From positions 2,656,501-2,720,500 of the forward strand of contig NC_088787.1 of assembly GCF_949628265.1 (NCBI RefSeq): a stretch of DNA of 64,000 nt, written 5' to 3'. A program made the translations under genes and the position numbers. Positions 600 to 61,888 of this stretch are shown here, one piece after another. Each line of letters opens with the position of its first letter. Position 1 is the first letter of the stretch. Under the pieces are notes generated by a model. That model was not told the DNA's origin and did not search any database. It saw only the letters and a list, made by a program, of their open reading frames with translations. The DNA is from Cloeon dipterum (taxonomy: Eukaryota > Arthropoda > Insecta > Ephemeroptera > Baetidae).

Positions 600-1640
600 A
601 TGTGGACCCCACGCTGGCGACAAATTGGCCCCAGGACTGATCTCAGGGTGGAGTACCCTGAAAAAGGTCGTCAGGGTGGGTAGGGCTTGTGAAGCCGATT
701 CGTTTGAGATGTCGTGACTTGAAATCCGTGGACCCGTTGAATTTTAAGAAAAATAAAACAATTTTCGGCTGTGCACTTGTAAGTTGGAAAGCAGTAAAAA
801 ACGAAAATTAATTTTTCTATGGGCGAGAGAAAGCTCAAAATCGGTTTCCAGACCGACGTTGAGCTTTCGTGTGTGGTCAAACAGAAATTATCGCAATCTG
901 GGTCCATTCGCAAAAAAAAAATAAAATAAAATAGGCCAATTTCCGGAGTGAATATAAAAACACACATTTTTCAAACTTCTAATCAAAATGGATCGTAACT
1001 GGTTCGTAATTAGTCTCAAAATGATTCCAGATAAAGTACGCGTCGAGTATCTTCTGAGTTTTTAAGAATTTTTTGCCCTGGACCGGAGATATGGCTGGCG
1101 GAAGCCGAAATGGGTTAAAAATACCGCAAAATTCCACTAAACTTGCTTATTTTTGTTATGAAAATCCCAGGAGATGATCTTTATTCAAAACCTAGCCGAA
1201 ATGGCCGGGCGGCATTTCCGGAAAAAGCTTGGGTAATGGTGCAATAATTATTGGTGAAAATTTTGAGTTTTTGCAAAATTTGAATCTTTAAAAATTCATA
1301 TCAATTCGAAAAATGGCCCAATTCTAAAAAACCACACACGAGCGGACGTGTCTCGTCATGGGGTATCGATTGGTGTAGAAATCAACGCCGGCCGGCCCAC
1401 AGGACCCCAGCCGGGCCCCGAAAACCGAAATTTTGGGATGTCACAAATCATGCTTTTTTACTTTTAAAGATTCATAGCTCGGTTCCTATTGGTTTTACAG
1501 TGAAAAAATAATTTACGTTGGACTTGCGATACAATTCTGCGTATTTTAGACACCCTCACTACCCCCGCCAGCCCCCGCCACCTCCAAACCCCCCAAAAAT
1601 CCATGCTAAAAGAGTCATTTTCTTCTTAATTCTTCTATGG
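600..1640 (-). mobile_element. Non-autonomous DNA transposon with long inverted ends, copy A
   Basis: This is a diverged copy of a roughly 1 kb repeat also found at about 4.48-5.48, 9.61-10.55 and 44.49-45.38 kb. Its left end (620-790) is the reverse complement of the right ends of those copies, including an outer palindrome-like core of the form TCAGGGTGGRGTACCCTGA beside GGTCGTCAGG, then CGTTTGAGAT and ACCCGTTGAATTTTAAG. The interior shares GGTTTCCAGACC and ACACGAGCGGACGTGTCTC with copy B. The right end is missing after about 1,640. No transposase reading frame is visible, so it would be a MITE-like passenger. Confidence 0.65.
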
Positions 1641-1739
1641 GTCTGAGAATGATTTTAATCCAAATAAATTAGGTTCACTGTTATAATTTTCAATTTGATT
1701 AGAATCATTTGATTAGCAATTTAATTAATTTTACGAAAA

Positions 1740-3460
1740 ATTCATCGATAATTATATTTTTTTTCTATCGACGGAGTAAAAGTGTGTGAATTTACTGGAA
1801 TCGCCTTTTGCGACAGAAAAAATCGTTTGCTCGTCCTTGATAAAAAAATATTTCTTAACGTGCATGCGCCTTTTTTGTGTCATGTTAAATTCTTGGAAGA
1901 GAACAAAATGCAATTTATTATACTGTATTGGATATTTTGTCACTGCAAGGGTTGTTGTTTTTCTCTACCAAGGCCAAAAGGTGAGCAACCAGAATGAATG
2001 ACATGCTTTCGAAAGTTCATCGACACAAACATCAACTTGCTTGCGCTTCTCCATCGACGGATTAAAATTTCGAAACTAAATAATTAATAAAATCGACAAA
2101 CGCATGATGCAAAACGTTGCGTCACAATAATTCTAATTTCTATGTGTTGCCACGCCACCGTAATAATGAAAAATAACTTTAAATGTGGCGTGTAAAAACA
2201 GAAATCGCGAGTCATTCAATTAGTTGCCTTTGTGACATTTTTTTCTTCTTCTCTATTCATTTTAGAGTGAAAAGAAAAGAAAACAGTGGAAATATTGTGC
2301 ACCCCCGCGCGCTTTGCTCGCTCGCGGCACTGCTCGTTGTGTGTTTTCCTATTGTTCGCACTATTCTTTCCAATTCCTTGCCATTTCTCCGTTAACGGCG
2401 AGGCAAACAGAAAATTTATTAAGTTGCTCAAAAATATTGAGAGCTCTGCAGAGTGGAATTTACCCTGCCAGTTTTTATTTCATAATTTTATTGTTTGATA
2501 ATTCATTTCAGAATGTGTCCTCGCTGCTCAATCGCGAGAATTTTGTAATATCAAATAGTTCTTTATTGATATTATTTTGTCTGGCGTAATTATTTTAATC
2601 CATTGTGAATGAATATTCGAATTTGTGTCATTCTTCATTCGGCGAGTCAGTTAAATAGTTAATTGTCATAATTCTCATTAAACCAAACCTAAATTATCAA
2701 ATTAACTGTAATTCCTTGTAAAATATTGCAGTTCTGTTGGTGATAAAAAATTCTTTCTGAAAGACAGAAAACACAGCAGCGACTCGGTAAACTTTCATAC
2801 GATTTTAGAAGAGGTGTAAAAATTGTGTTCAAAAATCTAATCACGCCAAAATTACTGCTGACATTAAATCATCGGTTAAATAAAGAAAAATAACTTAATT
2901 TTAATCAGAAATTCCAGCAAATCAGCGATGATCCTTAATTTAAATATCATAAAAAAATCTCTGCTTTCTCTCTTTTCCGTTTTTAAGGAATAATTATTGA
3001 ATTGACACTGACCTGTCTCACAGATGCTGAGATGGCTCTCTTATTTCCGCATCGAACGGAGAAAAAGGAAGAATGGTAACAAACTATTCTCTTGGGCCAG
3101 CAGCCGCAGCACTTCTTCAGCCAGATTAGTGTCGAGCGCCGTGCGTGGATTCCCCTTCCACTTCGCTATTCCATTCAAAAGTCTCTGCTGGGCGGCCGCC
3201 TCTATTTCTTCTCGCTGTGAAACACAATAATAAAGGACACTTCTTATTCAGGGAGCCAGCAAGGTACATGTTCTTCTTTTTTTAAATTAATTTACGAGCT
3301 GAAAAATAATTTAAATATTTTTTCGTATGTTTGGACACTCAGGATCAAACCCTGAAAGTTATAATTGGCCTCAAATGGTTCAATTTGGTATATTTTTATT
3401 ACTAGGACAAGAAAAATTATTTAATTACAATCAATTTCAGGTTTTCAAACTTCAAAATCA
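1740..3460. repeat. Segmental repeat unit, copy U1
   Basis: This is the first of three diverged copies of a unit of about 1.7 kb (others at 5.56-7.23 and 10.62-12.49 kb). Shared blocks include the stretch around ATCGACGGATTAAAATTTCG, the block with GCAAAACGTTGCGTCAC, one ending in TTTTAGAGTGAAAAGAAAAG, the CCCGCGCGCTTTGCT block, and an end containing CACTGACCTG. On the minus strand the right end holds an exon-like stretch with a splice acceptor at 3,215 and a donor at 3,012 (described separately). Apart from that I see no convincing coding sequence. It lies next to a GCGCATGCGC array. Confidence 0.7.
3013..3214 (-). pseudogene. Orphan exon-like ORF in repeat unit U1
   Basis: On the minus strand a good acceptor (GTGTTTCACAG) is followed by 57 open codons. 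They begin QREEIEAAAQQRLLNGIAKW and continue with KGNPRTALDTNLAEEVLRLL, then stop at 3,041. A consensus donor (CAG|GTCAGT) follows at 3,013. The helical, charged composition looks like real coding sequence. The matching stretches in the other two units (about 7,030-7,190 and 12,040-12,260) keep the splice signals but carry indels that break this frame. I do not recognise the protein. It may be an exon of an unknown gene copied and decaying here. Confidence 0.35.
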
Positions 3461-4310
3461 TGCGTGCGATGCCCAAAAACCTACTGCGCATGCGTGCGAT
3501 GCGCAGAAACCTACTGCGCATGCGTGCGATGCCTACAAACATAGTGCGCAGGCTTAGATTATCACTTTAAGCCTTATCACTCAAAAGAACATAGTAAAAT
3601 TTCAACAACTTCTTTTCCCGCCAATTCCGAAATTTCAAATCACCATTTATCGCATGCGCAGAACGTTTTAAAGCGGAAAAAGCATGCGCAGTGGAAGCTT
3701 CAATGATCTGCGCAACCTAAAGGCTCTAATTGTACTCAATGCGCATGTATATCATGCGTAGAAACCTACTGCGCATGCGTGTAATATGCACAAACCTACT
3801 GCGCAGCCTTAGATGATCGCTTTTAGGACTATCTTTTGAAAGAACGTATTAAATTTAAACGACTGTTCTTTTCCCGCCAATTCCAAAATTTCAAATCACC
3901 ATTTGTCGCATGCGCAGAACGTTTCAAAGCGGAAAAAGCATGCGCAGTGGAAGGTTACATGGTTTGCGCAACGTAAAGGCTCTAATTGTACTCAATGCGC
4001 ATGCATATCATGCGCAGAAACCTACTGCGCATGCGTGTAATATGCACAAACCTACTGCGCAGCCTTAGATGATCGCGTTTAGGACTATCGATTGAAAGAG
4101 CATGTTAAATTTAAACGACTGTTCTTTCCCCGCCAATTCCGAAATTTCAAATCACCATTTGTCGCATGCGCAGATCGTTTGAAAGCGGTAAAAGCATGCG
4201 CAGTGGAAGCTTCAATAATCTGCGCAACCTAAAGGCTCTAATTGCACTCAATGCGCATGTGTATCATGCGCAGAAACCTACTGCGCATGCGTGTTATGCG
4301 AACTAACCTA
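3455..4310. repeat. Array of GCGCATGCGC palindromes in a ~290 bp tandem repeat
   Basis: About three tandem units of roughly 290 bp each contain several copies of TGCGCATGCGT or CATGCGCAGAAACCTACTGC. They also share TTTTCCCGCCAATTCCGAAA and TCAAATCACCATTTGTCGCA. The same unit recurs at 13.16-13.46 kb and inside introns at 25.36-25.73 and 34.69-35.41 kb, with short relatives at 17.05-17.17 and 26.21-26.33 kb. The palindrome matches the binding consensus of NRF-1 (Erect wing in flies). No coding content. Confidence 0.8.
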
Positions 4311-39300: not shown

Positions 39301-42300
39301 AGAAGTTCATCGAGCATCCGTTCGCAATCGCCGTTTTCAAGGACAACATGTACTGGACAGACTGGAAGAAAAACGCCATCTTCGAGGCGGACAAGGACCA
39401 CGGCGTGGGCGTAACCACCCTGGCATCCGGCCTGTCGAACGTGATGGACCTGAAGGCGTACTCGGCCGGCATGCAGGCGCATGTGGTCAACCACACGTGT
39501 GCCTTGGCCAACTGCAGCCACGTGTGCGTCGCCATGCCCGGCCATTCCTTCAAGTGCCTCTGTCCCGACGGACTCGAGCTCAGCGGCAGCCAGTGCTACT
39601 GTCCCATGAAACTCAAGCCCCTCCAGAACGGAACCTGTCCCGCAGGTTTGAATCCATTTTTAGCGGGTTGTCTAAAAAATAATTTATTTTTAGTTAAAGA
39701 CAAGTGCCCAGTTGACTACTTCCGGTGCAGAAATGGAAACTGCGTCCCGAAACTGTGGAGGTGCGACGGAGACAACGACTGCGTGGACAACTCGGACGAG
39801 GTTTGTCTGAATTAAGCATTTTTCCGAAAATTAATTGCCATAATTTAGGAAAACTGCGGCCTGTCGACGTGCCAGGTGAACCACTTCCAGTGCAAGAAGA
39901 GCGGCAAGTGCATTCCGTCGTTCTGGAAGTGCGATTTCGACCTCGACTGCGAGGACGGCAGCGACGAGGAAGGCTGCAGTGAGTTAATTTTAGATTTCTG
40001 ATGCCTTTTTAATTTAAAATTTAATTCCTAGGCTATTCGAACTGCACCAAGGATCAATTTAAGTGCGACAACGGGCGTTGCATCAACCTCAAATGGGTCT
40101 GCGACATGGAGGATGACTGCAGGGACGGCTCCGACGAAAAGGTCTGCCCTTCATTCAAGCCGGTCACCTGCGGAGGTGAGTCTGAAATTAAATTGATGAA
40201 AATTTTGTGTTCGGCGCCAATTTCAAATTGTTCGTCCAGCGGAAATTTGGCTCATCGTTCGCTCCGCCCACTTTTATATCCCTCCGCACCCCCGCACGTG
40301 TCAGCTGATAGGATTGAAGTTCGCTCCAAGTGATAGACCTTTCAAAGCACTAACTTCTCTCCAATCAGCTGACTCGGAGAGATTTAAAAGTTGGCGGGGC
40401 GAATGAAAAGCCTAATTTCCACGACTTAATTGAAATTTTTTATTTTCAAAATAATTTAATCAATTCCCTCTTTTAATCAGCTGGTGAATTCCGTTGTGGC
40501 GGCAACACGACGCAGTGCATTCCGACAACATGGCGGTGCGACGGTGACAACGACTGCCACGACCAATCGGACGAGCAAAACTGCCAGCAGAACAAGTGCG
40601 AACCCTGGCAGTTCACGGTAGACAACAAACAAATAAATTAAACCACCTGATTTAACCGAATTTATACTTCTAGTGCGGTACGGACCAGTGCATCTTCAAG
40701 TCGTGGGTTTGCGACGGCGAGGACGACTGTCCCGACCGCTCCGACGAGAAGAACTGCACGGCTCCGCCGACCAGGGCACCGACCACGCCCCCTTCTCGCA
40801 ATCAGGCTCCTTGCAACGAGTGGCAATTCACTTGTAACAACAAAAAGTGCATTCCGTCGTGGTGGAAATGTGACTCGGTGAACGACTGCGGCGACAACAG
40901 CGACGAGCAAGACTGCTGGTCGGACGCTTCGACCACCCGGAAGCCTCCCAAGCCTTCCCCGACGCCGCCCAGCGGCACGTGCCTGCTCAACCAGTTCCGT
41001 TGCTACGACGGCACTTGCATTCTCGAGACGTGGGTCTGCGACGGCGTTGCTGATTGCTCACACGACGAGGACGAGGAACATTGCGGACAAGCTGGCTGCT
41101 CGTGAGTTTATTTATTTATTTTTTTTTTTGTTATTTAAATTAAGATGTAAATTTCCTTCAGGATTGGTATTTACCAATTTCTTGCGCAGGAAAATTTTTC
41201 TTTCGAATTACCATTTTTTCTACGTCAATTTTGTAAAAAATTCAGGTCTGATCAATATGCCTGCCGCGTGGATGGAACCTGCGTGAACATTACAATGGTT
41301 TGCAACGGCAAGAAGGACTGCATTGACGGCTCGGACGAGTTCGGCTGTGATGGCAAACCTCCAAATCGTAATTATAAAAAATTATTTAAATTCCAAATTA
41401 ACTGTTTTGATCTAAATATAGTGCCTGACGACACGGTGTGCAGTTCTGGATTTTTCTCGTGCGACGCGGGAAGCATCTGCCTTCCGCTGAGCAAAATGTG
41501 CGACGGCCACTCGGACTGTTACGACGAGTCGGACGAGTCTGTGTGCTCGCGCAACAGCAGCAAAGTGTACCAAGTGCTGCAGATGAGCGTCAACGAGCGC
41601 AGCATCAGCAGCGACACCATCATGCTCTACTGGTGGATCCCGAAGCCTGCAAACCTCACTTTCGAGTTCCTGCCCAGCCGTTCGGAGGTGTCCTCCTCGG
41701 CGCCGATGGCCGAGTGGGTCAACAACTCGGCCTGGGTCGACTCCAATAACTTCCAGGCCGCGGTCACTGGCCTCAAACCCTTCCAGCTCTACAACCTGAC
41801 CGTGTTTGTCCGCGTCAAGGGCTCGGACGTTGTCTATCCACCCGCCAAGTACATCACCGCACGCACTGCTGAAGGAGGTAATGAAATTTCTGATGTAAAC
41901 AACTTATTTATTCCTTCGCATCGCCGAGATCCGTCGTCTAATAGGATTCTCTTCGTTCGTGTCGTGGAAATTTGGCCGATCGTTCGCCCCGCCTACTTTT
42001 ATAACCCTCCGAGTCAGCTGATCGAAGGGAAGTTAGTATTCGAAGAGGTCTGCCACACGGAGCTAACTTAAATCCGTTCAGCTGACTCGTTTGGGCGAAG
42101 CGGAAGGATATCGAAAGTGAGCGGGCGTAAGATCGGCCAATTTTCTGCTTAGAAATTCTTCCCCCTGAGGAAATTTTCTAATCCTTCATGATATTTTTGA
42201 AGTGCCGTCGCCACCCTACGGCATCAAGGCCTCCTTCAAGAGCAGCAACGAGTTGGAAGTGTCGTGGAACGAGCCGTTGAAGGCGAACGGCATCATTGTC

Positions 42301-45300
42301 AGCTACACGCTGTTCATGTCGCCGCCCTACCCCCCGATAGAACAACAGCTCTACGCCAAGCCTAACCGCCACGTAATCAAAATGGATTTCCTCCCTGACG
42401 AACCCTACTCTATTTGGGTAAGTTGCTTATTTTGCCTTCCTTACTTTTTTCTTCGTCAGCTTCCGATCGGCCAAATTTTCGCATCACGAATGTTTTTTTC
42501 CTGTTTAAAATGGCGGCAAATAGTTTCTAACCAATATTCGACACAGATGACGTCGAAAAACGGTCGCGAGACGAGCAACACCTCTGAAATCACCTCTGCA
42601 AAGATCAGCGGCTCCGTGGTGGCGCCTATCGAGGGGCTCAACGTGACGAAGGTGAGCAGTGACTCGGTGACGCTGATGTGGCGCGGCGTGCAGAACGCGG
42701 ACGGCTACCGCGTCTCGGCCAAGGGTGGCCTGGCTTACGCGGTGCTGGACACACGCACCGTCACGCAGCCGACCATCGAGTTCAGCATGCTCGCCCCTGG
42801 CGCCACCTACACCTTCAAGGTCACCGCCTACCACCTCGGCTACTCCGGCATCTCTTCTCAGGTCACCGCGACCACCGAAGGTCAGGGTTGATTGAAATTA
42901 TTATTTTGTCAATTAAAACAATTTTTCAACAGGTGTGCAGTTGCCAGTCGTGCCGAACGTGAAGGCCGAAGTGGTCAAAAGTCAGGGTACGACGGTCAAG
43001 GTGACCTGGGACCAGCCAAAGGACTTCCGCCAGGTCAAGTGGTACTACGGCGTTTACTACGGCACAGACATGAGCCACCTGATGCAACGTAAGATCTCAA
43101 TTTCCACTGATTCAGGAGGGGAGGTAACCGACATTAATATTAATTTTCTCCTTCAGGGCCGTTGGTGACGACGTCCGAGCTGTCAGTGTCGATCCTGCAG
43201 CTGGCTGCATGCGAGTCGTACCTGTTTGACGTGGGCATTGTTGGTCCTCTAGGGGCCGGACCCATTTCCGGCCGCCAGGTCAACCTGATCACCGAGTACA
43301 GCCCGACGGCGGCACCCAAAAACCTGCGGGCCGCCAGACACCCTGTCACGCCAACCAAACTCACCGTCTCCTGGAGTGCCTCGTGTGATGCCATCCAGAT
43401 GCCTATCTCGTACTTCGTGAGTGCTAGAAATATCTTATGATTTTAAGAGGGGAGGTAGAGAAAGGTTACTTGCTTAAAAAGGGAGGATTGGCTTTACAGA
43501 GCGAAGAAAGAGAGAAATAGGAATTTTTTCGGTTGAAACTGTTGAATTTTTTACTTTCAGTGGACAATTGAGGGGGAAACGGCATCAGGGGGCACCAGGG
43601 GAGGGGAGGGATATCATAAGATTAAAGGGTGAATAGGAAAGTAGTTAATATTTAAATGGTTTATGAGGATATTGAAGAGTTTCCTATCGCTTTGAAGACT
43701 GGAGAGGGGAGGGGTATCCGATTGTGAAGGTTTTTCTCGTGAAAATATGACCCTTGACCTGATATCTGTGAAAATGCAATGGAAAACGATGCTAGAAAAC
43801 TAATTTTCTTTTTAAATTAAATTTAAATAGGAAAGTTAGGGGAGTTAATTTCAGGTTTTAATTTAAAGACATCTTTTACTGCAGTTTTTTCATGTCAAAA
43901 TTTTTTCCTTCAGGTGTTCTTTGACGAGGTGACGACCAAGAAGCATTTCGTGAAGCAGACGGCAAAGTCGAACGCGTCGACCTTCTCGCTGGAGTTTGAC
44001 GGCGTGTACGGCGCCGAGTACAGCATCCAGGTGTCGACGAGCGCATTCGGCGCCCTCAAGTCTGCAAGCGTGCTGCACAGCATTCCCATTCCAGCGCCGC
44101 ACCAGCTGCAGGTGCTTCCTGAAAGCAACGGAAGTCTCATCATCTACTGGCAGAACAAGGAGTTGCCCACCGAACTCGCCAAAGACAAGTAAAAATACTG
44201 CCATTTTTTAATTACAGATTTTGCTAATAATTTATGTGCAGGTATCAGTACGAGGTGTTGATCAGCAAGGGCTCGTGGCAGGGCGTAGAAAAGGCCAGGA
44301 AGTTCTACGCGGCGGAGGCGCCGTTCGTGCTGAACGAGACCGACAGCGGCACCGCCTACTCGGTCGCAGTCCGACTCGTCACCTCAAAGGGATACTACTC
44401 TCTCCTCTCAGAGATCAACACAATGGAGACAAGTCAAAGTGAGTGTCGAGAGAAAAAAAGCGGCAAAATTCAAATTCTAATTTGACGCCTGAATTCGGCC
44501 CTTCTGCTAAAATATTGTAATAATGACAAAAACTTTTATGGAGCGCGGATTTTGGGTACATTTGACGCGAAATTCTACGGCGAGTCTAATAAACTTTGGT
44601 TTTTTACTCCAGGGCCCATAGGAGCCGAGTTGTTAATTTTTAAAGGAAAAAAACTATTTGTGACGCTTCCCTATTGTGGTTTTTGTGGTCCAGGTGGGGC
44701 CCTATGGGTCGGATGACGCCGATTTTGGTACCAATTGATTCCCCTCAGTAAAGCGAGTCAGCCCGTGTGCAATTTATCAAAATCGAACCTCTTTTCGAAT
44801 TAATACGATTTTTTTGGCCGAATTTTCGACAATATCCCGCTTTCGGCCACCGTATTTTGCGATTGGGGTAAGAATTCGACACATCACGTGTTTAAATAAC
44901 GCAAAATTTATCTGGGAAAGTTTCGAGACCAAATTCGAGCCGATTTGATAAAAATCCTAGGAGGAAATTGATTTTGAACTTTGAAAAATGTGATTTTCGC
45001 ACTTTCTCCATAAAGGTAACATGGTGGGAAATCTAAAATTCTCGATTTTTTTCCAAACGGATTAAATTTGAAGGATCTTACGAACTCCATCGCACGCGCA
45101 GGTCCAACGCCGGTCTGGAAACCGATTTTCAGATTTTTCGCGCCAATAGAAAAATTATAATTAATTTTTTTCGGGTTTGTCGGCTTTGGGACGTGCACGG
45201 GCGAAAATGGTTTTATTTTTGTTTAAATTCGGCCGTTCTTCCGATCACCAACCACGACCCCTCATTGGAAACGTCTTGGACGGGGCTTTGACCTTCAGTA

Positions 45301-46439: not shown

Positions 46440-47970
46440 TCTTGTTCAAAAATATTAAACTTAATTATTTTTTACGTGCTCCTCGATCTAAAGTTTATTT
46501 AATTATTCATGCCATTTCGCACTAATAATATATGTATATAGTGGTTGTGGAGCCAACACAATTAATTAGATTTTTACCTCTTGTTTTTATGCGATACAAT
46601 TAATAAGATTAAAAATGGGAAAAGGCTGCTCCTCAGAGTGAGCCTTTGATTAATAATGAAATATTCAGATTAATTTTATCGTTCCTTCAGAGTTTATGCT
46701 GGTGGCCAATAAGGTGAAAAAACAGCGTGAATTATTATTGAGATTAATTAATTAAGTTTTCGGGGTGGTTTATTTTGCTCAAAATGACTGATCTAACAGA
46801 GAGAAAAACACTTTCGATCGCGAAATTGGCCATAAATTACGTTACTGAAGTTAAAGTTAACGCGGACGAGACTTTATTTGAAATAAAACGTCAATTTTCT
46901 TACCATAAGACTGGCGAATATCAGGTCGAGGCGCAGGAGAGATGATGCTCGGCAGAGGGCGCAGAGGAAACCGTCTGCTGGTCTCCGAGCCGGCGTAAAA
47001 GCGCCGCCTAGAAATAATCAACTGCTGTATGGAAATTCAAAAGTGCCGCGTTAAAATGGGACCCCCTGCCGCAATCTCGCACCACTTTCAGGGAAGTTGA
47101 GAGAGGTCTGGCTAGATGGGAGTGTGGATAAGCAGCCGTTTTCGCAATGGAAGCCGAATATGATTTTTTTTTAATTTTAAAACATAATATGTGTCATACT
47201 TGAAGAACGATTAAGTTTATCAAAGCAGACGTAGCCAAATTTTAAATAGAAAAGTTACACTGGTACAGGGAAAGGTCTTTTTCTTTTACAGTTAATTTTC
47301 AAGAATTGGTTAACGGGATACTTTTACTGCTTTTACTTTAAAGTCATAATAAAATATTATTCGACGTATATTTGCGGCCATGATAAAAAATTAGGTTAAG
47401 TCTTTCTCTTTCCTTTGTTATTAATCTTAATAAATAAGATTATCCAATATATGTGGTTATTGTTATTTTGAGCAAAATTGATTAATATAGAAGTTTTAAG
47501 TGATAGAGTGATATCATAGCTGAATAAAATTGATATCAATATTTCTTGGATTCTAAAAAATTTTCAGTGCCCATAATAATGCTCTAGTAATATAAAAATA
47601 ATGCTTTTTTTGGAATAAAACGCAGTTATCGATTTACAAAATCATTTAGATTTTATTGTCAAATGTCAGCGGATCATTCACTTTTACATTATTCACATTA
47701 TAAAATTAAAATCTGCTATTTCAAAAATCTTATCAATAAATAACAAAAAAAATATATTCTGTATATGTTCCGTACACATCACCCTACACTGCGAAACTTA
47801 TTCTAAAAGGTAATTAAAATTAGTTTATACAATACATGGCATTACAATTAAAAATCAAGTAAAAATATGACCCCATACTAGAAAACTCCACGAAAACAAT
47901 TAATCATAGCAGCTCACCTCATACTTTCATACTGGAGTGACTCATGATCATACTCTGAACTCAATTTCTA
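46440..47970. other. Intergenic region between convergent genes
   Basis: AT-rich DNA of 1.5 kb, except for a GC-richer patch at 46,920-47,120 with no recognisable frame. I see no gene, RNA or repeat. The right part is probably the 3' UTR of the minus-strand gene ending at 47,975. A minus-strand AATAAA occurs near 47,655. Confidence 0.5.
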
Positions 47971-47974
47971 CACG

Positions 47975-50900
47975 TTACTTGGCGATGCTTGACGCTTCGA
48001 TATCATCAAACCTTTTAATAAGTATTAATTGAGTTGGACAATATTGTTCTACGTAGTCCCGAGCTGATTTCCCTTCATTGTCTCTTACGTTGACATCCAC
48101 ATTTTTAGACAGCAGTATTTCAACAATATCCCAAGTCCAGGGGCCCATTTTGCAAGCCAGAATCAAGGGGGTTTCGTTCAAAGCGTTTCTCGCGTTCAAA
48201 TCAACGACGCCTTTCTCCACAAGCCAAACAGTAATAACTGATATATTCCTGTCGTATTCCTCTAACTTGATTGCCAAATGCAGAGCGGTATCTCCATTGT
48301 TCAAACGCTGTTTAACCAAATCACCATTCAACCCATCAAGTAATCGAGCAATGTCAAAGTTTTTTATCGCATGGTGAAATGCGTTCATTCCATCGTTGTC
48401 TGTCAAAGTCAAATCTGCGCCTCTTTGGCACAGCTCATGCACAATACTATAATCAGATGGGATGGTTCTAATTATATTTTCTAACACAGGAGGATTTTCT
48501 TTCAAATTCACGGCGTAGTGGAGGGCCGTTCTTCCTTTTTTATCTTTCATGTGTATATCGACGCTTTTGTCCAACAAAATTTTGGCAATAATCCACTCTC
48601 CTTTCTTGCAAGCCAGTTGAAGTAGTGTCTCATGACCCTCGCTATTTGTCGAATTCAAGTCAATTGGATTTTGTTTAGAAATGGGCACATTTAATAAACT
48701 ATGGCTTGCCAAATGGAAGGTTGTGTCTCCATTTTTCAAACGCAACAATTCATTGTTTTTCTCGAGAATAAATAAAAATGTCTGAGAGTAACGCATTGCG
48801 TGGTGCAAAGTGTTCATTCCATCGTTGTCCGTTAGAGCAAAATCCGCACCTTTTTCATGCATCAGCTCCACTAAATTCAATTTTCCTTTCTCTGCGGCGT
48901 AGTGCATTGCAGTTTTGCCTCGCGCGTCTTGGACATTGACCTCAACATTTCTGGTCAGCAGCTTTTTGGCGACACTCCAGGTCATATATTTGCAAGCCAG
49001 TAATAGTGGTGTATCACCAGAAGCATTTTTTGCGTTCAAAACGGCGTCGTCTACTTTTTCTATAATCCACAAAGCGATGCTTTCGTACCCTCGTCCTGTC
49101 CACAATGCCAGATGTAGAGTTGTGCCTCCGCCGTTTAATGGCTGTTTCACTAGAGATCCGTTCTTCGCATTGATGAATCTTAACATTCTTTTGTTTTTGA
49201 TAGCGTAGTGGATTGCATTCTTTCCTTCCTTGTCCGTTTGTGATAAATCTGCGCCGTTTTTCAGCAACATTTTCACCAAATCAATATTTTCTGACTCAGC
49301 AGCGAGGTGCAGAGGTGTCCTTCCACGATTGTCACATCTGTTCACTCTCTCTTTCAGTGCTGATCCAATAGAACCCATACCAATATCTGGATTTTTGTCT
49401 TCCTTTGCCACGCAGGCTATAAGCTTTTCCACAAATGGCAAATGACCTCCTTCAGCAGCACAATGCAATGCAGTCCATCCATCTTCATCTACCACATCCA
49501 AGTCTCCACCGAGTTCTATCCAAGTTTGCAGAGCCTCTAAATCACTCCTTTCAGCGGCTGCATGCAGGCACGTTTGCCCCCATTTGTTTTTGAAATCCAG
49601 GTTGATATCCTTCGTCATCAAATAGTCAACGCAATCCTTTCCTTCGTTAACTGCAAGACGCAACGAAGTGCAGCCATTGTTGTCCTTTGCTCTTACGTCA
49701 ACTCCAATCTCTTCGACCAGAAAACGTGCTTTCTCATCCAAGGGGTCATTACAGGAATTTAGAAGAATATGCAGCCCTGTTTGTCCACTTTTGGTTGTCT
49801 CCTTGGCCAGTTGACAATCGGTGCTGTGCAACAATCGAATCACTTTTTCTTTATGGTCACTGTTACTTTTGCAAGCAAAATGAAATGCATTCCATCCATT
49901 TTCGTCTTGAGCTCTAATATTTGCGCCAGAATCGATCAACTCTTGAACACGCTCAAGATATCCATGTTCCGCAGCACAATGAAGAGCAGTTTTTCCTCTT
50001 TCGTCCGTCATGTCAATGTCACTCTTTTGCAGAATTAGGAAATGGTCCATGCATATAAAATCATCCAAAGACCAATGAGTTGGTTCTCCACTTGGTCGTA
50101 AGGTGTTCACGTCAACCCCTGCTTCGTCAACAAGCCATTGACACATTTCTAAACATCCTCTTCCTGCCGCAAATTGTAGAAGACTTCCGTCATAGCCATT
50201 TTCTTCGTGCTTCAAGCTAGAGCTCTTTTCCATTAAAAATTTTGCTATTTCTTTGTGACCTCTGTGAATAGAATATTGGAGAGCTTTCAAATATATGTTT
50301 ACTTCATTGTTTTCAAAAGTTTCTTTGTTGCGTTGCAGTCCACTGATATTTTCATCCAATAACAATTTGACCAGGTCAAGGTTATTTTCTTGTACAGCCA
50401 GCATCAAAGGGTCAAGGCTGTTACCCCATTTGTTTCTTGCCAATTTCGCTCCATGCTTAAGCAAAGTTTCCACGCACTTCATAGCTCCGTGTCTGGTAGC
50501 ATAATATAGGGTGTTTCCATAATACTTTTCCACGTAATCGATGTCAACACCGCTTTTCAACAGTAGTTCAAGGATTTCACCGTGATTCTTTCTTGCTGCA
50601 ATGACTCCTGCGTCTATTATACATCTTCTATAGCGAATCATCTCTGGCAATCTAGGAAATTTAGTCTTTAGCTTCTCATAGAAGCGAGTTGCGTTTGACC
50701 CTGCAACTGATGTCAACAGGGAAGGTAATATTATTAGCAAATCAACGTAACTGTTCATATAGTCCTTGTCAAGCAGCTTGATAGCAATTTCTTCCGCATG
50801 GCCAAGGATTGCTTTTTCTAAAAGAGACCAATTATTTATGACATAAATACAACTACCTTCTTGGTTTTTACTGAAGGTGATAATCGGATGGATAATTTTG

Positions 50901-53900
50901 AAAATATTTACATAGCCATTGCGAACAATCAATTCCAAAAACACAGGGGGGCACTCCTTCACGATTGGAAGAATTGATGCTCTGTGTTCTTCAATCATTT
51001 CCTCATCAGTCAACACTGTGGAATAGAAAAGATCGACAAAGTGTCTGAACCCAACTTGCCATTCCTCTAAAAATAATTGAGCAAGAATTTGAGTACTGGT
51101 TTGGTAATCGCATTTGCCACTATCCTCGATTTCTCGTAGGAAATGCTGGGCTGCAAGAAATTCGGCGAAAGTCTGATGAATGAAAATAACTTTGTTGTTC
51201 TCATACGAGGCAATGCCATAGCAGTTGATTTTTTCAAGGTCTTGTCTCGTGTAACCAATTGGGGGAAATACTCTCATGTGGAAACTTGCTATCTGTCGAA
51301 GACATTCGAAAGCGACGTCAATTTCCTCTTGAAATTTGACTTTGTTGTTCTTGTCGTATCCATTTCTGATCAGAGAATCTTCCACTTTGTGTCGCACGAC
51401 CTGGTCGTAGATTTGGTACAAATTTCCTTCTGCTCCGTACTTAGCAACCAAAGAAAGGTGCAAAGGATTACTTAAGATGTCCTTTGATGTAAAGTTCTTG
51501 ATGAATTCTTCACAATCGCCTTTACTCATGTCCGTCTCTTGCTGAAGCAACTCGATTTGCTGCTCTTGGTTCAAGCGATCAATCTTTACTAAAACAGCAT
51601 TTGATGTCCGCTCTAGGATTGTTTTTTCTGCGTGAGGTCTCGTTCCGATCCATACGGATATCTGCTTCTTTTCTAAAGCTTCGATAACTTTCAGAATTTT
51701 CTCTTGTTTTTCAGGACGGATTTCGTCAAACCCATCAAGAAACACAACACATTGCTTGTTTTCTATGCTTTTGATGATTTCCTCTTGTGAATTGGGAGTG
51801 GCTTTCGCGAGAAATTCAATCTCAGTCACATTCCGCTTGAGAGTGCTGAACGATACACTCGGGAGAGAAATGCGTAAAATTTTTAATTCTGGATCTAATT
51901 TCCCGAGCTGAAAAGCCATTTCCCTGAGGATTGTCGTTTTTCCTGATCCTGCGACTGAACTCAAGAGCCAAATTCGTTTTTTTCTTGCTGCCTCCTTAAC
52001 CAAGCTGTCGAAGCATATGATTTTTTCTTGAAATTCTTGAGAGTTTTGGACGAAAATTGGTGCAGTAGTCAATTTAATTTTGTTGAGATAAAATGATTTG
52101 TTGAAATTTGTAGAATGAGGTTGAGGCCTGGTTTTACATTCTTGAGAATCTTCCACTGAAAAGTTAAGTTTAACAAAAGACCCGTACAAGTCGGGAAAAT
52201 TGAGAAGATATTGAAGCGTCGAGTCAATCATATCCCTACTTTCTATAGAGTTGGAAATGAGCAGACTTGCGAGCAGTTCTTGCAGACTTTTCTCCTGTTT
52301 CAGCTCTTGCCCCTTGAAGATTTCGATCAGCTTTTCGATTTTTTCTAGGTACGAAAAAAGTTTACATCCTGTTACATTTTGGTTAGATAAATCTACCTTT
52401 GCTGTGTAAAACTAGGACTAACCATCCACTGTGGTTTGTTGCTGTATCATCCCTTTTGGGCTTTTCTGATACGGCGCTCTATAGGACAAAGACATTGCGA
52501 GTTTATTACTTTGATATGATTATTGTTCTTGACACATGAAGTATTTTGAAACTAGCTAATTACCAATCGTACTTACGTCGTCATCTAAGGTCGTTTCCTG
52601 ATCCAAAACGAATAATATTTTTGGTTTTCCAATCCACTTGTCGTTTTTTGGCCCAATAAACTGGCGCAGTATTTCAGATACTGCAGTTTCTCCACTGTCT
52701 ACCTGCACACAAACCTCGTTCGTGTCCTTGTTTTCACTAACTTGGGCAAACAAAAATAGAAAAAGGCAGCCATTGTCGCAGTCAAACCTCGGAACTGAAA
52801 TATGAATTGCTTGAGTTTGTATAGTAACAATAAAAAAATTGGAAATACTTTTATTAATGTGCGACCACGGATTTCCACTTAGCCTCCATTCGCTGGTCTC
52901 AAAACCTAGGTTTTTTGAGAGCGCTCTTTTAATTTCTTTCAACTGCTCATTTGGCTTTGCGGAAAATAGAAACGCAAGGCGGCGTCGCAATTTTTCCCAA
53001 TCGTAAAACTGGGCGTCAGATGTCGAGGTATCTGGCTTATTTGTAGGACTTCTGAAATTTTAAATTTTTCATGATACAATTTGTCTGCAGGGAAATCCTG
53101 TTAAATAACGAAAACTCACTCTGAGAAGAAAAAATATCTGTCCTGGGAAAACATCTTGAATTCTGGGGTCTGTCCATTTTTCCCGTCAACCACAATCTTG
53201 TGACTCTCATATTGAACAGTTGTCAGGACATTTACGAGACTCTGGTCCATTTTAAGCGAATTTAAGACTTGGCACGTAAGGCGGACGAAAGTTGATCCTA
53301 ACTGAGGGTGTCGTTTGGACATTGTTGCTGTGAAAATTATCGCAAAAAGTAGAGAAAATATACTCATTGACAAAAGTCTTACTTTCAACCGTAGAGAAGA
53401 ACACAACCGTGTTCCTCATCAGAGGGCTGTAGGTTATTTGGCAAGAATTTTCGTTCTTGAAAGAGACACATTTTTGACTTGGGACAAAAGCAGCGTCTTC
53501 CAGTTGCCCTCTACATGCCTATAAACAAATTATTTTGATACAATTAAGGCTTGGGTGATATTTGCAGAGACTTACACCAAAGTTTACAAATTTAAGGCAT
53601 TCCTCAAAACCAGTCAGCTTTTTTAGAGAATCGAATATCTCCGCTGTTGTGAAGGAAATAAAGTCGTTAGGATCATCGTTCTGGTGGTAGTCTGTCAAGA
53701 TTTTTCCATTTCTGCTGCCGTGAGAAAGAATGTAAAGCACAAATACTGAGGGAACATCTGGAAAATCAATACACTTAAGATACAATTTATAGAAAAGCTT
53801 TTCGTTTTACCTGAGCAGGTGAATAATCGTAATATTTCTTCCTGATTGGAGAGAAGTTTGAGCAACTGCCCTTTTTCCGGCGACAAAATACTGCGGAAGT

Positions 53901-54483
53901 TGCAGTTCCGGTTCACTCTGAAGGTTCTTTCCAGGTTCTTTACGTCCTCATCATCACCTCTCCGAACTTTTTTTGTGTTCTTTGCTTTTTTAAAGCTGTA
54001 GTGGACGACGAGCACGCAAACACTGAGAATTAAGGATTTATAATAATATTGTCAGATAATTTGCACGACATAATTTTCGTACTTGTCTGCGTTTTTTCTG
54101 GTTTGGTCTTTCGACACGAAATATCCTAATTTCGACGGCCCCTCGGGCATTTTCTCTTCTGAGAAATAGTCAAATATCAGTGAAAACTATTTATATTACC
54201 TGCAAAGTGCAAAGTCGTAGAATCCGGAATGGGGCCAATATTTTAACTGGGATCTAAAGTAAGGGTGCTCTCCCTCAAGGAGGCCCGCACCTTTGGTATA
54301 TTTGGGGACGGGAAGGTTCCACGAATTTTAATTTCGCGGTTAATGCACAAGATGTGAAATTTAACTTTTTTTTAACAATATTTAGAGCCCCATATGGTAG
54401 CTAAATCGGTGCACAGGAGCGACAAGGGGTGGGATCAGTTCGATATCCTTACCTGCTTCAACAATCCTTTCGTTTTTTTCCAT
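47975..54483 (-). CDS. Caspase - pseudocaspase - NACHT - ankyrin repeat protein
   Basis: Ten exons on the minus strand join in phase: 54483-54453, 54158-54083, 54022-53811, 53757-53576, 53518-53383, 53327-53120, 53051-52849, 52794-52577, 52478-52430 (its donor is weak) and 52368-47975. They encode about 1,902 residues. Residues 35-280 form a caspase: p20 has VFVLYILSHG (His119) and FGACRGQ (Cys169), the catalytic dyad, and p10 includes HPQLGSTFVRLTCQVLNSL. Residues 285-425 form a second caspase-like fold lacking both catalytic residues (...GKPKILFVLDQE). Then comes a NACHT NTPase: P-loop SSVAGSGKTT (about 575-584), Walker B VVFLDGFDE (about 648-654), and a downstream proline motif. From about residue 1,015 there are some twenty ankyrin repeats, all in one 4.4 kb exon. 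NACHT proteins oligomerise on ligand sensing and caspases execute cell death or cytokine cleavage, so an inflammasome-like or death-inducing receptor in one chain is the natural inference. The exons are AT-rich, unlike the genes to the left. Confidence 0.85.
54200..54290 (-). other. Possible mutually exclusive exon of the caspase-NACHT gene
   Basis: Between exons 1 and 2 lies a 91-base open stretch with an acceptor (ACCAAAG) and a donor (GCAG|GTAATA). It reads AGLLEGEHPYFRSQ, LKYWPHSGF, YDFALC. Its entry phase (1) fits exon 1 and its exit phase (2) fits exon 3, exactly as exon 2 (54,158-54,083) does, while joining it to exon 2 would break the frame. It could therefore replace exon 2. The acceptor lacks a good pyrimidine tract. 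Confidence 0.35.
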
Positions 54484-56461: not shown

Positions 56462-58505
56462 TTACTGGTGAATTTCGGCAGCCACAGTGATAGCCACTGG
56501 TTTAATTTCTTCGTAGATCGGCTCGGATATTTCACCTTCGTTGCTGACTGAAAGATCAACAGAAATAACGCTCACATCTTCACGCTTCTTTTCCTTTTCA
56601 ACGATCAAGTCTTGCGACATTTTCATTTTTCTGAACCAATAAATTTGGAATGCGATCGAGAAAACGCAGATGACATTCCAGCAAGACAAAACGATGTTCG
56701 AAACACGCAAACTTGGGTATTTTGCCATCATACAGGTTCCATTTCCTTTTTCGACAGGATTGAGTCCTAGAGTTGTGTTAAGAATTTCTTCAGAAAACAT
56801 TGGGTGAGCTGGCCATGCGGTTGTCCTCTCTTGGTTTGAAGACAAAATATATATTAACTCGCTTTTTAATAGATTTTTCTTCGTGCTTTTTATAATAACA
56901 ATATTGCTAGCAAGTATTACAAAAAATTTGATTTTAATTACCTGTCAATAAGTGGTTATACAGGTAGGATCTAGCGCCAACGTCAGCCTTCAGTATTCTT
57001 GTTCGCGGTCTTTGATTGGATTTATATTGAACTAAAAGCCACATATTTCCAGACGCGTCTATGGTGAAAGAAAATGGCCAGGTATTCCTCTCCACTCCTT
57101 CTCCCTAAAACAAAAATCATAAAAGTCTTTTGCATAAGCAGAAGCCTCTTAGCAATCTTCAATTTTTGCCTCTAATACCTTGTAAATATACTTCTCCTTA
57201 AAGGGCAAATTCGTGTCATACATCGCAATACAATTCTCGGCCGGAAGGTCAAAGTATAGCACGCCATTTTCGTCCATGGTCATCCTGTTTGACTCGGCTG
57301 ACTTCATTGCCACTATTGTGGGCGTCACTATCTTCGCTCCTTTTCTTAGGTCTGATACGGAAATTGATAGTATATTCTTGGAGGAAGCTTCAGTAAGGTA
57401 AAGTTGCTGTCTCATTTTCAACGGAGAGAGAGCGACTGCTTCGATGTACGTATTTTTTACTTCCACGCGCCATGATTTTTTCTCCTTCAAACTAAACCCC
57501 ACCAGATGCTTAGAATGATAATCCACGATGTAAGCAAAGCAATCATTCTCTGATTGATCTAAAACCATTTCTTGCAGCCATCGTTTGCCATGGAAATGCG
57601 AGACGACTGTGTTCGGAAATACGTGTACGTGTTTTATAGCGTTATTGTCAGCTAGGTTGATAATTAAGAGTTTGGCTGGACAGTTCATACCGCCATTGTC
57701 CACAACCCACAGTTGGTCGAATGGGTCTACTTCAATTCCTTGGGCGTTTTGCACGGTGATGCATTTTCCTCTGTCGTCCTGCAGAAAAGCGTTAGAATTT
57801 TTCGTGAGCATTTTTAGTTATGCTAACGCAATAAGACATTAAAATGAGTAATTGAAAATAACCAGGGAGATTTCTGGAGGAGCATGTAATTGGGATGGAG
57901 CTGTATATGGCCGCACCCCGGCTTCCCGCTCACAATTAAGCGAACTATCAGCTAATGTAATCAGCCGAGCTAGGTGCGAGAGGCCGGGCCGCGTGCATAC
58001 AGCAAAAGAGAGTGTCACGAGTCTACGTTAACGACGCTAGACGCTATATTACTATAGGACTGGCGGACACCGACATATTCACAGACTGCCATATAGGGTT
58101 CAGTATATCAACTGAATCAATTAAAATTTGTAGAGGAATAAATTTTAACAGACGAAAAGCATTATGTGAACTTTTTCCAGATCCACCGATATTTTATTTA
58201 TTTCCATAGCTGTTTAAAAATATTCTTACCTGTTTTTGCAACGACGGGAAAGAATACAGTCTTGGAGACTTAGTTGGCGCATCAGTTCGAAGCCAAGCGA
58301 GAGTTGAAGGATAGGAAGAGCCAACATGACTTTTCAGACTGAGAATCATCTTGTTTTTGTAGACCGCGATGTACCGAGGATCTACTGTGCTGGACTTGTA
58401 GACGCCATCAAAATGGCCATTCCACTCGTAAACGGTAGAGAAGTTCTGGTGATGGGCTGCCGTGAGGAAGCCAAGCAGCGTAACCAGTTTGGAGTACGAA
58501 AACAT
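56462..58505 (-). CDS. Membrane-anchored Yellow/MRJP-like protein 1 (468 aa)
   Basis: Four exons join in phase: 58,505-58,230, 57,778-57,179, 57,104-56,942 and 56,829-56,462. The start MFSYSKLVTLLGFLTAAHH is a signal peptide and was chosen over an upstream in-frame ATG at 58,607. The body is an MRJP/Yellow propeller: FSTVYEWNG, QGIEVDPFDQLWVVDNG, FAYIVDY, SWRVE, ALSPL...LYLTEAS, GVLYFDLP and IAMYDTN. Yellow proteins are normally secreted. This one continues with a transmembrane helix (about 391-411, NIVLSCWNVICVFSIAFQIY) and a roughly 57-residue cytoplasmic tail ending with SEPIYEEIKPV (Tyr452). That motif resembles the pYEEI ligand of Src-family SH2 domains. The propeller's N-terminal segment is short for the family. 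A TATA box lies 125 bases upstream. It is tandem with two more copies on the same strand. Ligand and role are unknown. Confidence 0.85.
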
Positions 58506-60159: not shown

Positions 60160-61888
60160 TTAATTATTCTTTCGGAACCAAAGAATCTGGGATGCGGTGA
60201 AGTAGAGGCAGAACACGTTCCAGCAGGACAAAACTATGTCCAAAACGAGCAGGCCTTTATATACTGCGTCGTCATCGCATGTTCTGATTTCTTTTTCTGT
60301 GAACAAGGAAGACATTTTTAGCATGTTTAATGACGTGAAACTGCTTTTATTAAGGTCTAGCGTAGTACATCTATTATGAAATAGCGATAACACCAACTTA
60401 TCATCAATCATTTCTGACCAAAAAGTATCCGGACGGAAATATTTTGGATATGATTCGGTCTAATGATGATTTGAATGATTTTGAGTCTTTTCCCTGATGG
60501 TTTGACAGGAAAAGGCAATCATTCGAGACTGTTAACCAGAGATTGAAAGAAAAATAAATTAACACGTTTATTTAATTGACCATTCTTCTTGCTTTCATTA
60601 ATAACCATATTGCTAGAGATAATTAAAAAGATATTCGAATTACCTGTCAAGTTTTTATACAGGTATGATCTTGTGCCGACTGCAGCCTTCATTATTCTCA
60701 TTTGCGGTTTTCGGTTGGATTTATATCGGACAATAAGCCACATATCTCCAGACGCGTCTATGGTAAAAGAAAATGGCCAGGAATTCCTCGCCACCTCCAC
60801 TCCTTCATCCTAAAACAAAAATCATAAGTCTTGTTCCATCAACCTTCCATTTTTTGTCTCAAATACCTTATAAATATACTCCTCCTTGAAGGGCGAATTC
60901 GTGTCATACATTGCTATGGACTTCTTGGCCGGAAGGTCAAAGTAGAGCACGCCCTTTTCGTCCATGGCCATCCAGTTTGACTCGGCTGTCTTCATTGCCA
61001 CTATTGTGGGCGTCACTATCTTCGCTCCTTTTCTTAGGTCTGATACGGAAATTGAGAGTATATTCGTGGAGAAGGCTTCAGTGAGGTAAAGCTGCTGTCT
61101 CATTTTCAACGGAGAGAGAGCGAGTGCTGTAATGTATGTATTTATTGTCACTTCCACGCGCCATGACCTGTTCTCCTTCAAACTAAACACCACCAGATAC
61201 TTAGGATCAACGATGTAAGCAAAGCAATCATTCTCTGATTGATCTACAACCATTTCTCGCAACCATCGTTTGCCGTAGAAATGCGAGACGACTGTGTCCG
61301 GAAATACGTGCACGTGTTTTAGTTTGTTTCTGTCAGCTAGGTTAAATATTGAAAGTTTTGCTGGACAGAACCATCCGCCATTGTCTACAACCCACAGTTG
61401 GTCAAATGGATCTACTTCTATTCCTTGGGCGTCCTGCACGGTGATGCAATTATATCTGTCCATCTGAAAAAGCGTGTAAATTTGCTGCGATTGGTATATT
61501 TACTTTTACTTAGATTTTAAAAATAATGAAACAGCAAAAGAAAAAGCACAGTTTTTGAGAATGTATAGAAACGACTTTTTTAATTTCCATACTTGTATAA
61601 AAATGTTCATACCTGTTTTTGCAATGACTGGAAAGAATACAGTCTTGGAGACTTAGTTAGCGCATCAGTTCGAAGCCAAGCGAGGGTCAAAGGATAGGAA
61701 GAACCAAAATGACTATTCAGACTGAGAATCATCTTGTTTTTGTAGACCGCGATGTGCCGAGGATCTATTTCGCTGGACTTGTAGTCGCCTTCAAACTGGC
61801 CATTCCACTCGTAAACGGTAGAGAAGTTGAGGCAATTTGCTGCCGCAAAGAGGCCGAGCAGCGCAACCAGTTTGAAGTGCGAAAACAT
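60160..61888 (-). CDS. Membrane-anchored Yellow/MRJP-like protein 2, tail-less (391 aa)
   Basis: Four exons join in phase with the same structure as gene 1: 61,888-61,613, 61,463-60,867, 60,809-60,644 and 60,296-60,160. The signal peptide is MFSHFKLVALLGLFAAANC. The propeller is very similar to gene 1 (QGIEVDPFDQLWVVDNGG, WRVEV, GVLYFDLP, IAMYDTN). The transmembrane helix is kept (VLDIVLSCWNVFCLYFTASQ, then ILWFRK), but the frame stops right after it (NN, TAA at 60,162-60,160). Beyond the stop, decayed tail sequence is still readable, including a seven-base tandem duplication just before the remnant of the SEPIY motif, so the tail was lost by mutation. The protein should still reach the membrane but cannot signal through the tail tyrosine. 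Confidence 0.82.

Follow-up and report, generated by a model that had tools for sequence, protein, structure and literature searches.

A mayfly gene family that joins a caspase, a predicted pseudocaspase, a NACHT switch and an ankyrin array in a single chain

STAND receptors that carry their effector in cis are already known from bacteria, plants and fungi. The TIR and CC NLRs of plants are of this kind, and vertebrate NLRs need ASC or CARD recruitment for their protease. Here we describe a gene of the mayfly Cloeon dipterum that encodes a caspase domain, a caspase-like second module, a NACHT domain and a long ankyrin-repeat array in one predicted protein, a combination that we did not find in the openly licensed literature searched. 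The gene lies on the minus strand (54,483-47,975) of the window, by which we mean the whole analysed stretch of 64,000 nucleotides on contig C2 (2656501-2720500) of a genome of 190.1 Mb in 10 contigs. Its identity and its membership in a large family appear to us practically certain.

Several described systems share parts of this design. Metazoan NLRs such as NLRC4, NOD2 and NLRP3 likewise possess a NACHT with a winged-helix/helical part, an N-terminal effector side and C-terminal repeats, but the mayfly chain holds the caspase itself instead of CARD, PYD or DD, carries ankyrins instead of leucine-rich repeats (LRR) and belongs to an insect. Caspase-8 and c-FLIP(L) are two proteins with DEDs. 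There, an active caspase is paired with a catalytically dead one, as may be the case in the mayfly protein, which in contrast is one chain with no DED match. In bacterial caspase-STAND proteins (PMC8195603), a caspase effector sits in cis on a STAND switch, the NACHT clade included; their peptidases, however, are bacterial caspase-like ones, the partners named are FGS, glycosyltransferase-4 or TPR, and the excerpts of that article mention no tandem pseudocaspase. Fungal NACHT-ankyrin NLRs are described in excerpts of PMC4986451 as large families that combine NACHT with an ankyrin array whose concave face evolves fast, but with PNP_UDP, SesB-like, HeLo and other domains at the N-terminus; the main text of that article contains 'caspase' once and 'C14' zero times. 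The 'shortcut' fusions of amphioxus (TNFR-caspase and LRR-caspase) also put a caspase on a receptor part and bypass adaptors, whereas the fusions named in excerpts of PMC2575513 include no NACHT, and ankyrins or a pseudocaspase are not mentioned there. A figure legend on NLRs of the sponge Dysidea avara lists CASc and so points to a possible caspase-bearing NLR in an animal, but the excerpt gives no detail and mentions no ankyrins or pseudocaspase (PMC12909245). In cnidarians, 35 Pfam domains were found with NACHT, with no caspase domain among those named in the excerpts of PMC8260672, and PMC12258605 does not mention 'caspase'.

As far as the excerpts available go, arthropods have been called 'apparently devoid of NLRs' (PMC4986451), arthropod NLRs are said to be without an N-terminal effector (PMC11508797), and a shrimp NLRC has been studied (PMC12370184). 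The main text of the C. dipterum genome paper (PMC7250882) does not mention NACHT, caspase or ankyrin. Among the papers listed by our searches of the openly licensed literature, none dealt with NACHT or NLR genes of mayflies, which is no proof of absence.

The gene in the window has ten exons, all bordered by GT-AG and matching in phase, which join into a single open frame of 1,905 codons followed by a stop. An earlier note on this DNA, made from the sequence alone, had proposed ten exons in consistent phase, and the gene model bears this out; the SHG, ACRG, GSGKT and FLDGFDE motifs that it named are all present in the protein. The modules follow each other in the order caspase, caspase-like module 2, NACHT, helical part and ankyrin array. 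Exon 1 (54453-54483) contains the start codon, reads MEKNERIVEA and ends at a GT donor in phase 1; the paralogue P0001 begins MEEVKRIVEE. Exon 2 (54083-54158) follows an AG acceptor and encodes a pro-segment (EEKMPEGPSKLGYFVSKDQTRKNAD). Its junction with exon 3 was the sole doubtful one: the donor GACAA/GTACGA is in phase and the joined sequence reads NADNVCVL. The donor at 54,083 was settled by the paralogues L042 and P0002, the latter matching across the junction with the same NADNVCVL (NAENVCVL in P0001).

The caspase domain occupies exons 3 to 6. Exon 3 (53811-54022) encodes the first part of p20, with matches in domain and structure-database sequence searches and with the motif RRGDDED, in which we presume the S1 Arg to lie. 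The catalytic His (His119 at 53722, in SHG, residues 118-120) is in exon 4 (53576-53757), and the catalytic Cys (Cys169 at 53515, in GACRG, with ACRG at residues 168-171) is in exon 5 (53383-53518), which continues through a short inter-subunit linker into the start of p10; the remainder of p10 is encoded by exon 6 (53120-53327). The earlier note had named a profile search as a check on this domain, and the outcome is firm, as Peptidase_C14 matches with 53.0 bits (E=5e-14) against a Pfam cut-off of 21.4. The best match to a solved structure by sequence is caspase-3 (E=1.4e-5), and the p20 and p10 fold of C14A caspases is present. Across the family alignment the first domain retains the His in 52 of 52 rows and the Cys in 51 of 52, figures that are inflated because rows were chosen with the motifs. 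By eye, P0022 (on C4) reads TMANTS at the site of the p10 Arg.

Module 2 begins in exon 7 (52849-53051) after a linker, has its p20-like core in exon 8 (52577-52794), where KPKILFVLDQ stands in place of the caspase KPKLFFIQAC, and continues through exon 9 (52397-52478; ATNHSGWLVLVLHSK) into exon 10. All 52 rows of alignment A2 share the W of the exon 9 block (W456 in P0001). When a profile of 13 diverse family members was compared with the PDB, all 59 matches at E<=10 were caspases or c-FLIP. The best was an ancestral effector caspase (E=5.2e-7), followed by caspase-6 and caspase-8 at about 1e-5 (caspase-8: E=1.3e-5), with c-FLIP not significant (E=1.5); the matches span the p20 part. Three of the 13 profile rows match Pfam C14, the first with 24.8 bits, above the cut-off. 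An AlphaFold2 model (pLDDT 82.7, pTM 0.75, 52 sequences) was made for the paralogue P0001, not for the window protein. Read from its element list, the strand and helix order of module 2 is that of a caspase including a p10-like second half, and this half is predicted by the model alone. The VIA-align rows were taken up by the first caspase (residues 25-284) and hence are no test of module 2. At the aligned catalytic positions, module 2 has the Cys in 0 of 52 rows and the His in 1 of 52. Taken together, the family profile and the model support the view that module 2 is a conserved dead caspase. Two proteins, P0019 and P0025, have a precomputed C14 match and no SHG motif; possibly only their pseudocaspase module is matched.

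Exon 10 (47975-52344) encodes the end of module 2, the NACHT, the winged-helix/helical part and the ankyrin array up to a TAA stop. The NACHT NTPase (51520-51985), with the P-loop GSGKT from 51949 and the Walker B motif FLDGFDE from 51742, was matched by Pfam with 35.4 bits (E=1.2e-8; cut-off 26.7). Further downstream lies HQTFAEFLAA (51149-51178), which we take to be a winged-helix motif typical of NACHT proteins; its H-x-TFAEF core shows little or no variation in the family alignments A1 and A2. In a Foldseek search with the model of P0001, not of the window protein, the best matches were NLRC4 (1.6e-12), NOD2 (3.5e-12) and NLRP3 (5.5e-12). Walker A and B motifs and, on the P0001 model, an NLR-like nucleotide-binding domain/winged-helix fold place the protein in the NACHT clade of STAND NTPases.

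The ankyrin array (48025-50692) is matched by Ank_2 with 338 bits (E=4.9e-103), above the Pfam cut-off. The earlier note had counted about twenty repeats. The long array is confirmed, but the single-repeat model PF00023 found 13 stretches and our own scan 11 clear repeats, so that twenty is a possible rather than an established count; in a control of 20 shuffles the scan found zero repeats in 19 and one repeat in the other. No LRR families occur among the Pfam matches of the window protein at E<=1, nor do CARD, PYD, DED, DD or BIR, in a scan covering exons 3-10 (the 35 residues of exons 1-2 lie outside it). With no LRR and no death-fold domain found, the window protein falls outside the strict definition of an NLR, although its sequence looks built to work like one.

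The earlier note had described this one gene; as a correction to it, the gene is not alone. The C. dipterum genome contains at least 101 NACHT matches (46 on C4, 34 on C2), a lower bound as scoring was confined to the best candidates. Among the matches listed, at least 84 of the 101 are preceded on the same strand, within 6 kb, by a p20 or C14 match (median distance 1,584 bases, range 1,065-3,974), and random placement would give about 0.3 such pairs. This pairing used about 150 of the 186 matches to the window p20 together with 14 of the 36 C14 matches. L033, outside these 84, has a caspase by direct reading, which brings the NACHT loci preceded by a caspase to at least 85, the window gene included. 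DNA was read at length for the 20 best NACHT loci and for L044, the sole one from the other 81. Nineteen of the 20 best have the caspase and module 2 in the same order, L024 being without, and in spliced alignments of the best loci the exon sizes are largely alike, apart from some spurious tiny end exons. The loci crowd one end of two chromosomes, the last 5.5 Mb of C4 holding 42 of its 46 and the first 5 Mb of C2 holding 30 of its 34.

L024 (C1:9155645) is the top-scoring NACHT of the genome; it has a 193-codon open frame and no caspase was found upstream. It is perhaps an older, unrelated NACHT gene. At four places (two at C4:29.99 Mb, one each at C4:34.34 Mb and C1:41.63 Mb) a family-type p20 exon is followed by no NACHT match over the next 6 kb; these are possibly solo caspases, broken copies or cases of a missed NACHT.

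We searched protein databases for the same domain order, as the earlier note had suggested for genomes of insects and other arthropods; these searches can detect a protein only through an exact 5-residue word in common, and numbers of annotated protein entries are not gene counts. A query with the NACHT part found 55 proteins, 53 of them from mayflies, and 32 of these 53 have C14, NACHT and ankyrins according to precomputed Pfam matches. A profile of 15 family members found 71 proteins, of which 52 were new, namely 29 from mayflies (22 with all three domains) and 23 non-mayfly or unnamed; a Neocloeon caspase-domain query found 20, all from mayflies. The order was found in Neocloeon triangulifer, with 16 LOC entries that combine C14, NACHT and ankyrins and are annotated 'uncharacterized protein'. 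None of the 25 non-mayfly or unnamed matches of the NACHT-part query and the profile has C14, and the caspase-NACHT-ankyrin architecture was not found outside mayflies within the reach of these searches. The mayflies represented are two species, C. dipterum and N. triangulifer, both Baetidae. A protein of the midge Polypedilum vanderplanki (P0053; E=3e-8) is named NACHT domain-containing and has an ankyrin match and no caspase, so among insects mayflies are not alone in having NACHT as such.

Some of the fused Cloeon entries stem from another assembly with different contigs, and the fusion is therefore no accident of one assembly. Annotated proteins from two Cloeon assemblies and Neocloeon carry caspase and NACHT in one predicted chain, and neither of the outcomes that the earlier note had named as refuting it, separate caspase and NACHT exons or a failed caspase profile, was encountered in the proteins and profiles analysed. 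Sequence, paralogues, the second species and the structure model of a paralogue agree with the earlier note in assigning caspase, pseudocaspase, NACHT and ankyrins to one insect protein. In a midpoint-rooted tree of 52 members, 31 form a Cloeon-only clade (support 0.992) and 16 a Neocloeon-only clade (support 1.0), with one cross-species pair (P0049/P0072). We infer that the architecture is older than the split of the two genera and expanded separately in each.

Evolutionary rates differ along the protein. For nine C4 loci, using pairs with synonymous divergence (dS) below 1.5 (28 pairs; 31 for module 2), the median ratio of non-synonymous to synonymous rates (dN/dS) was 0.34 for the caspase, 0.36 for module 2, 0.31 for NACHT, and 0.73 for both the post-NACHT and the ankyrin parts. 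Between the window gene and L044 the values were 0.33 (module 2), 0.32 (NACHT), 0.48 (post-NACHT) and 0.55 (ankyrin); the in-frame stop of L044 precluded a caspase value. For the 12 proteins of the C2 group, mean entropy was 1.43 bits at binding-face ankyrin positions versus 1.12 at convex ones (66 sites each; one-sided Mann-Whitney p=0.010, sites not independent), positions 3, 13 and 14 being highest. We took the binding-face set (positions 2, 3, 5, 13, 14 and 33) to be that used in DARPin design, the convex set being an assumed one too. This pattern is consistent with constraint on effector and switch and change in the sensor.

On balance we lean towards a single-chain, adaptor-free, NLR-like STAND receptor belonging to a large family of baetid mayflies. 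In the mechanism that we propose, which in outline (ankyrins sensing, NACHT oligomerising, caspase executing with no adaptor) is that of the earlier note, the ankyrin array would keep the protein off and would bind a non-self or modified-self ligand. Nucleotide exchange would then open the NACHT and allow oligomerisation, which would crowd the N-terminal caspases and activate them by induced proximity with no CARD, DED or PYD adaptor. The adjoining pseudocaspase may serve in cis as dimer partner or allosteric brake, by analogy with c-FLIP(L) for caspase-8, and the outcome would be cell death or processing of an immune substrate. The short p20-p10 linker in exon 5 appears to fit proximity activation better than cleavage by an upstream protease. 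More tentatively, and with somewhat less than even odds in our estimation, these proteins may form an adaptor-free 'inflammasome in one chain': about 100 receptors, each subunit with its own caspase and a built-in c-FLIP-like pseudocaspase, in which NACHT assembly would build active caspase/pseudocaspase pairs.

Several observations weigh against this interpretation or parts of it. For module 2 of the window protein, the single-sequence Pfam scan gave no caspase match and hhalign against the family's own caspase domain was negative (probability 0.3); the pseudocaspase of the earlier note is thus upheld by the family profile and the P0001 model and by neither of these comparisons. In the caspase, Gly replaces the S1-pocket Gln (of QACxG) both in the window protein and in 48 of 52 rows, and 13 of the 52 have Thr for the p10 Arg (P0001 position 218). 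One cannot therefore count on cleavage after Asp; the change from Arg to Thr could reflect clades that differ in protease specificity. An SHG-like motif is missing from nine of the 53 mayfly proteins found with the NACHT part, and a tenth, P0018, matches it at a place outside the caspase. Seventeen of the 101 NACHT matches, L033 among them, have no p20 exon upstream among the matches listed. L044, the closest paralogue read, has its in-frame stop in caspase exon 3 in a gene that otherwise matches, and some family members are therefore broken. The P0001 model carries no information on oligomers. Counts of variable and invariable sites at the ankyrin face were not significantly different in the C4 group (Fisher p=0.30; 18 versus 81 sites). 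With its median below 1, the ankyrin dN/dS gives no demonstration of positive selection.

Some of these points would be accommodated if, in the same receptor, the caspase were a signalling protease that processes an immune substrate and no cell died. Insect Dredd, for example, processes Relish. The catalytic dyad is conserved, yet the S1 Gln and, in part of the rows, the p10 Arg are lost, and substrate choice is therefore probably unlike that of apoptotic caspases; canonical Cloeon caspase loci, moreover, do show QACxG (in 3 segments). All this is still compatible with killing, and we rate a pure signalling role as possible, though rather doubtful. The S1 loss, the stop in L044 and the adjoining module 2 with no catalytic Cys in any of 52 rows could also mean that the caspase no longer cuts and that the pair acts as a scaffold or as a decoy inhibiting other caspases. 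A scaffold, however, needs no dyad, and the dyad is kept in the first domain, in a proportion that row choice inflates, while module 2 has lost the His in 51 of 52 rows and the Cys in 52 of 52; the caspase dN/dS of 0.34 also argues against this view, which seems to us improbable.

A further explanation is that a small caspase gene and an adjacent NACHT-ankyrin gene were merged by gene prediction alone. Some annotated members without a caspase (e.g. P0012, P0014 and P0029) and the four places with p20 but no NACHT downstream would be in line with this. On the other hand, exon 10 starts inside module 2 and a conserved block crosses the exon 9/10 junction, the module order is shared by 19 of 20 loci, and fused proteins are annotated in both Cloeon assemblies and in Neocloeon. 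As the junction lies inside module 2 and the arrangement recurs in paralogues and in the second species, we rejected a two-gene artefact as very unlikely. Finally, the family might act outside immunity (in self-recognition, development or gamete conflict), its expansion being neutral duplication. This would agree with a median ankyrin dN/dS below 1, but the separate expansions in Cloeon and Neocloeon, the clustering at chromosome ends and the faster ankyrins look like conflict genes, and we regard such a role as unlikely.

Three other features of the window were also noted. A candidate polyadenylation signal, AATAAA (47652-47657, minus strand), was seen by eye about 0.32 kb past the stop of the receptor gene. 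Beside this gene, two similar open frames (GIEVDPFDQLWVVDNG) on the minus strand (57149-57817 and 60822-61499) are presumably tandem yellow/major-royal-jelly genes. On the plus strand (39303-42891), open frames show by eye LDL-receptor class A and fibronectin-III-like sequence, which we take to be perhaps a sorting-receptor gene.

Excerpts of the genome paper state that C. dipterum was inbred for genome work and profiled by RNA-seq across its life cycle (PMC7250882), so tests of the proposed receptor are within reach. With about 100 NACHT loci, most of them with a caspase of their own, this mayfly overturns the published arthropod picture for one early-branching lineage of winged insects. Its predicted receptors offer a direct test of an animal NLR-type protein with its protease in cis, and of whether pairing with a pseudocaspase is a general caspase switch. 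If the inflammasome in one chain is real, these insects, which have been said to have no NLRs, would possess an animal counterpart to the resistosomes of plants in which the executioner belongs to the same chain and recognition has diversified in the ankyrins.

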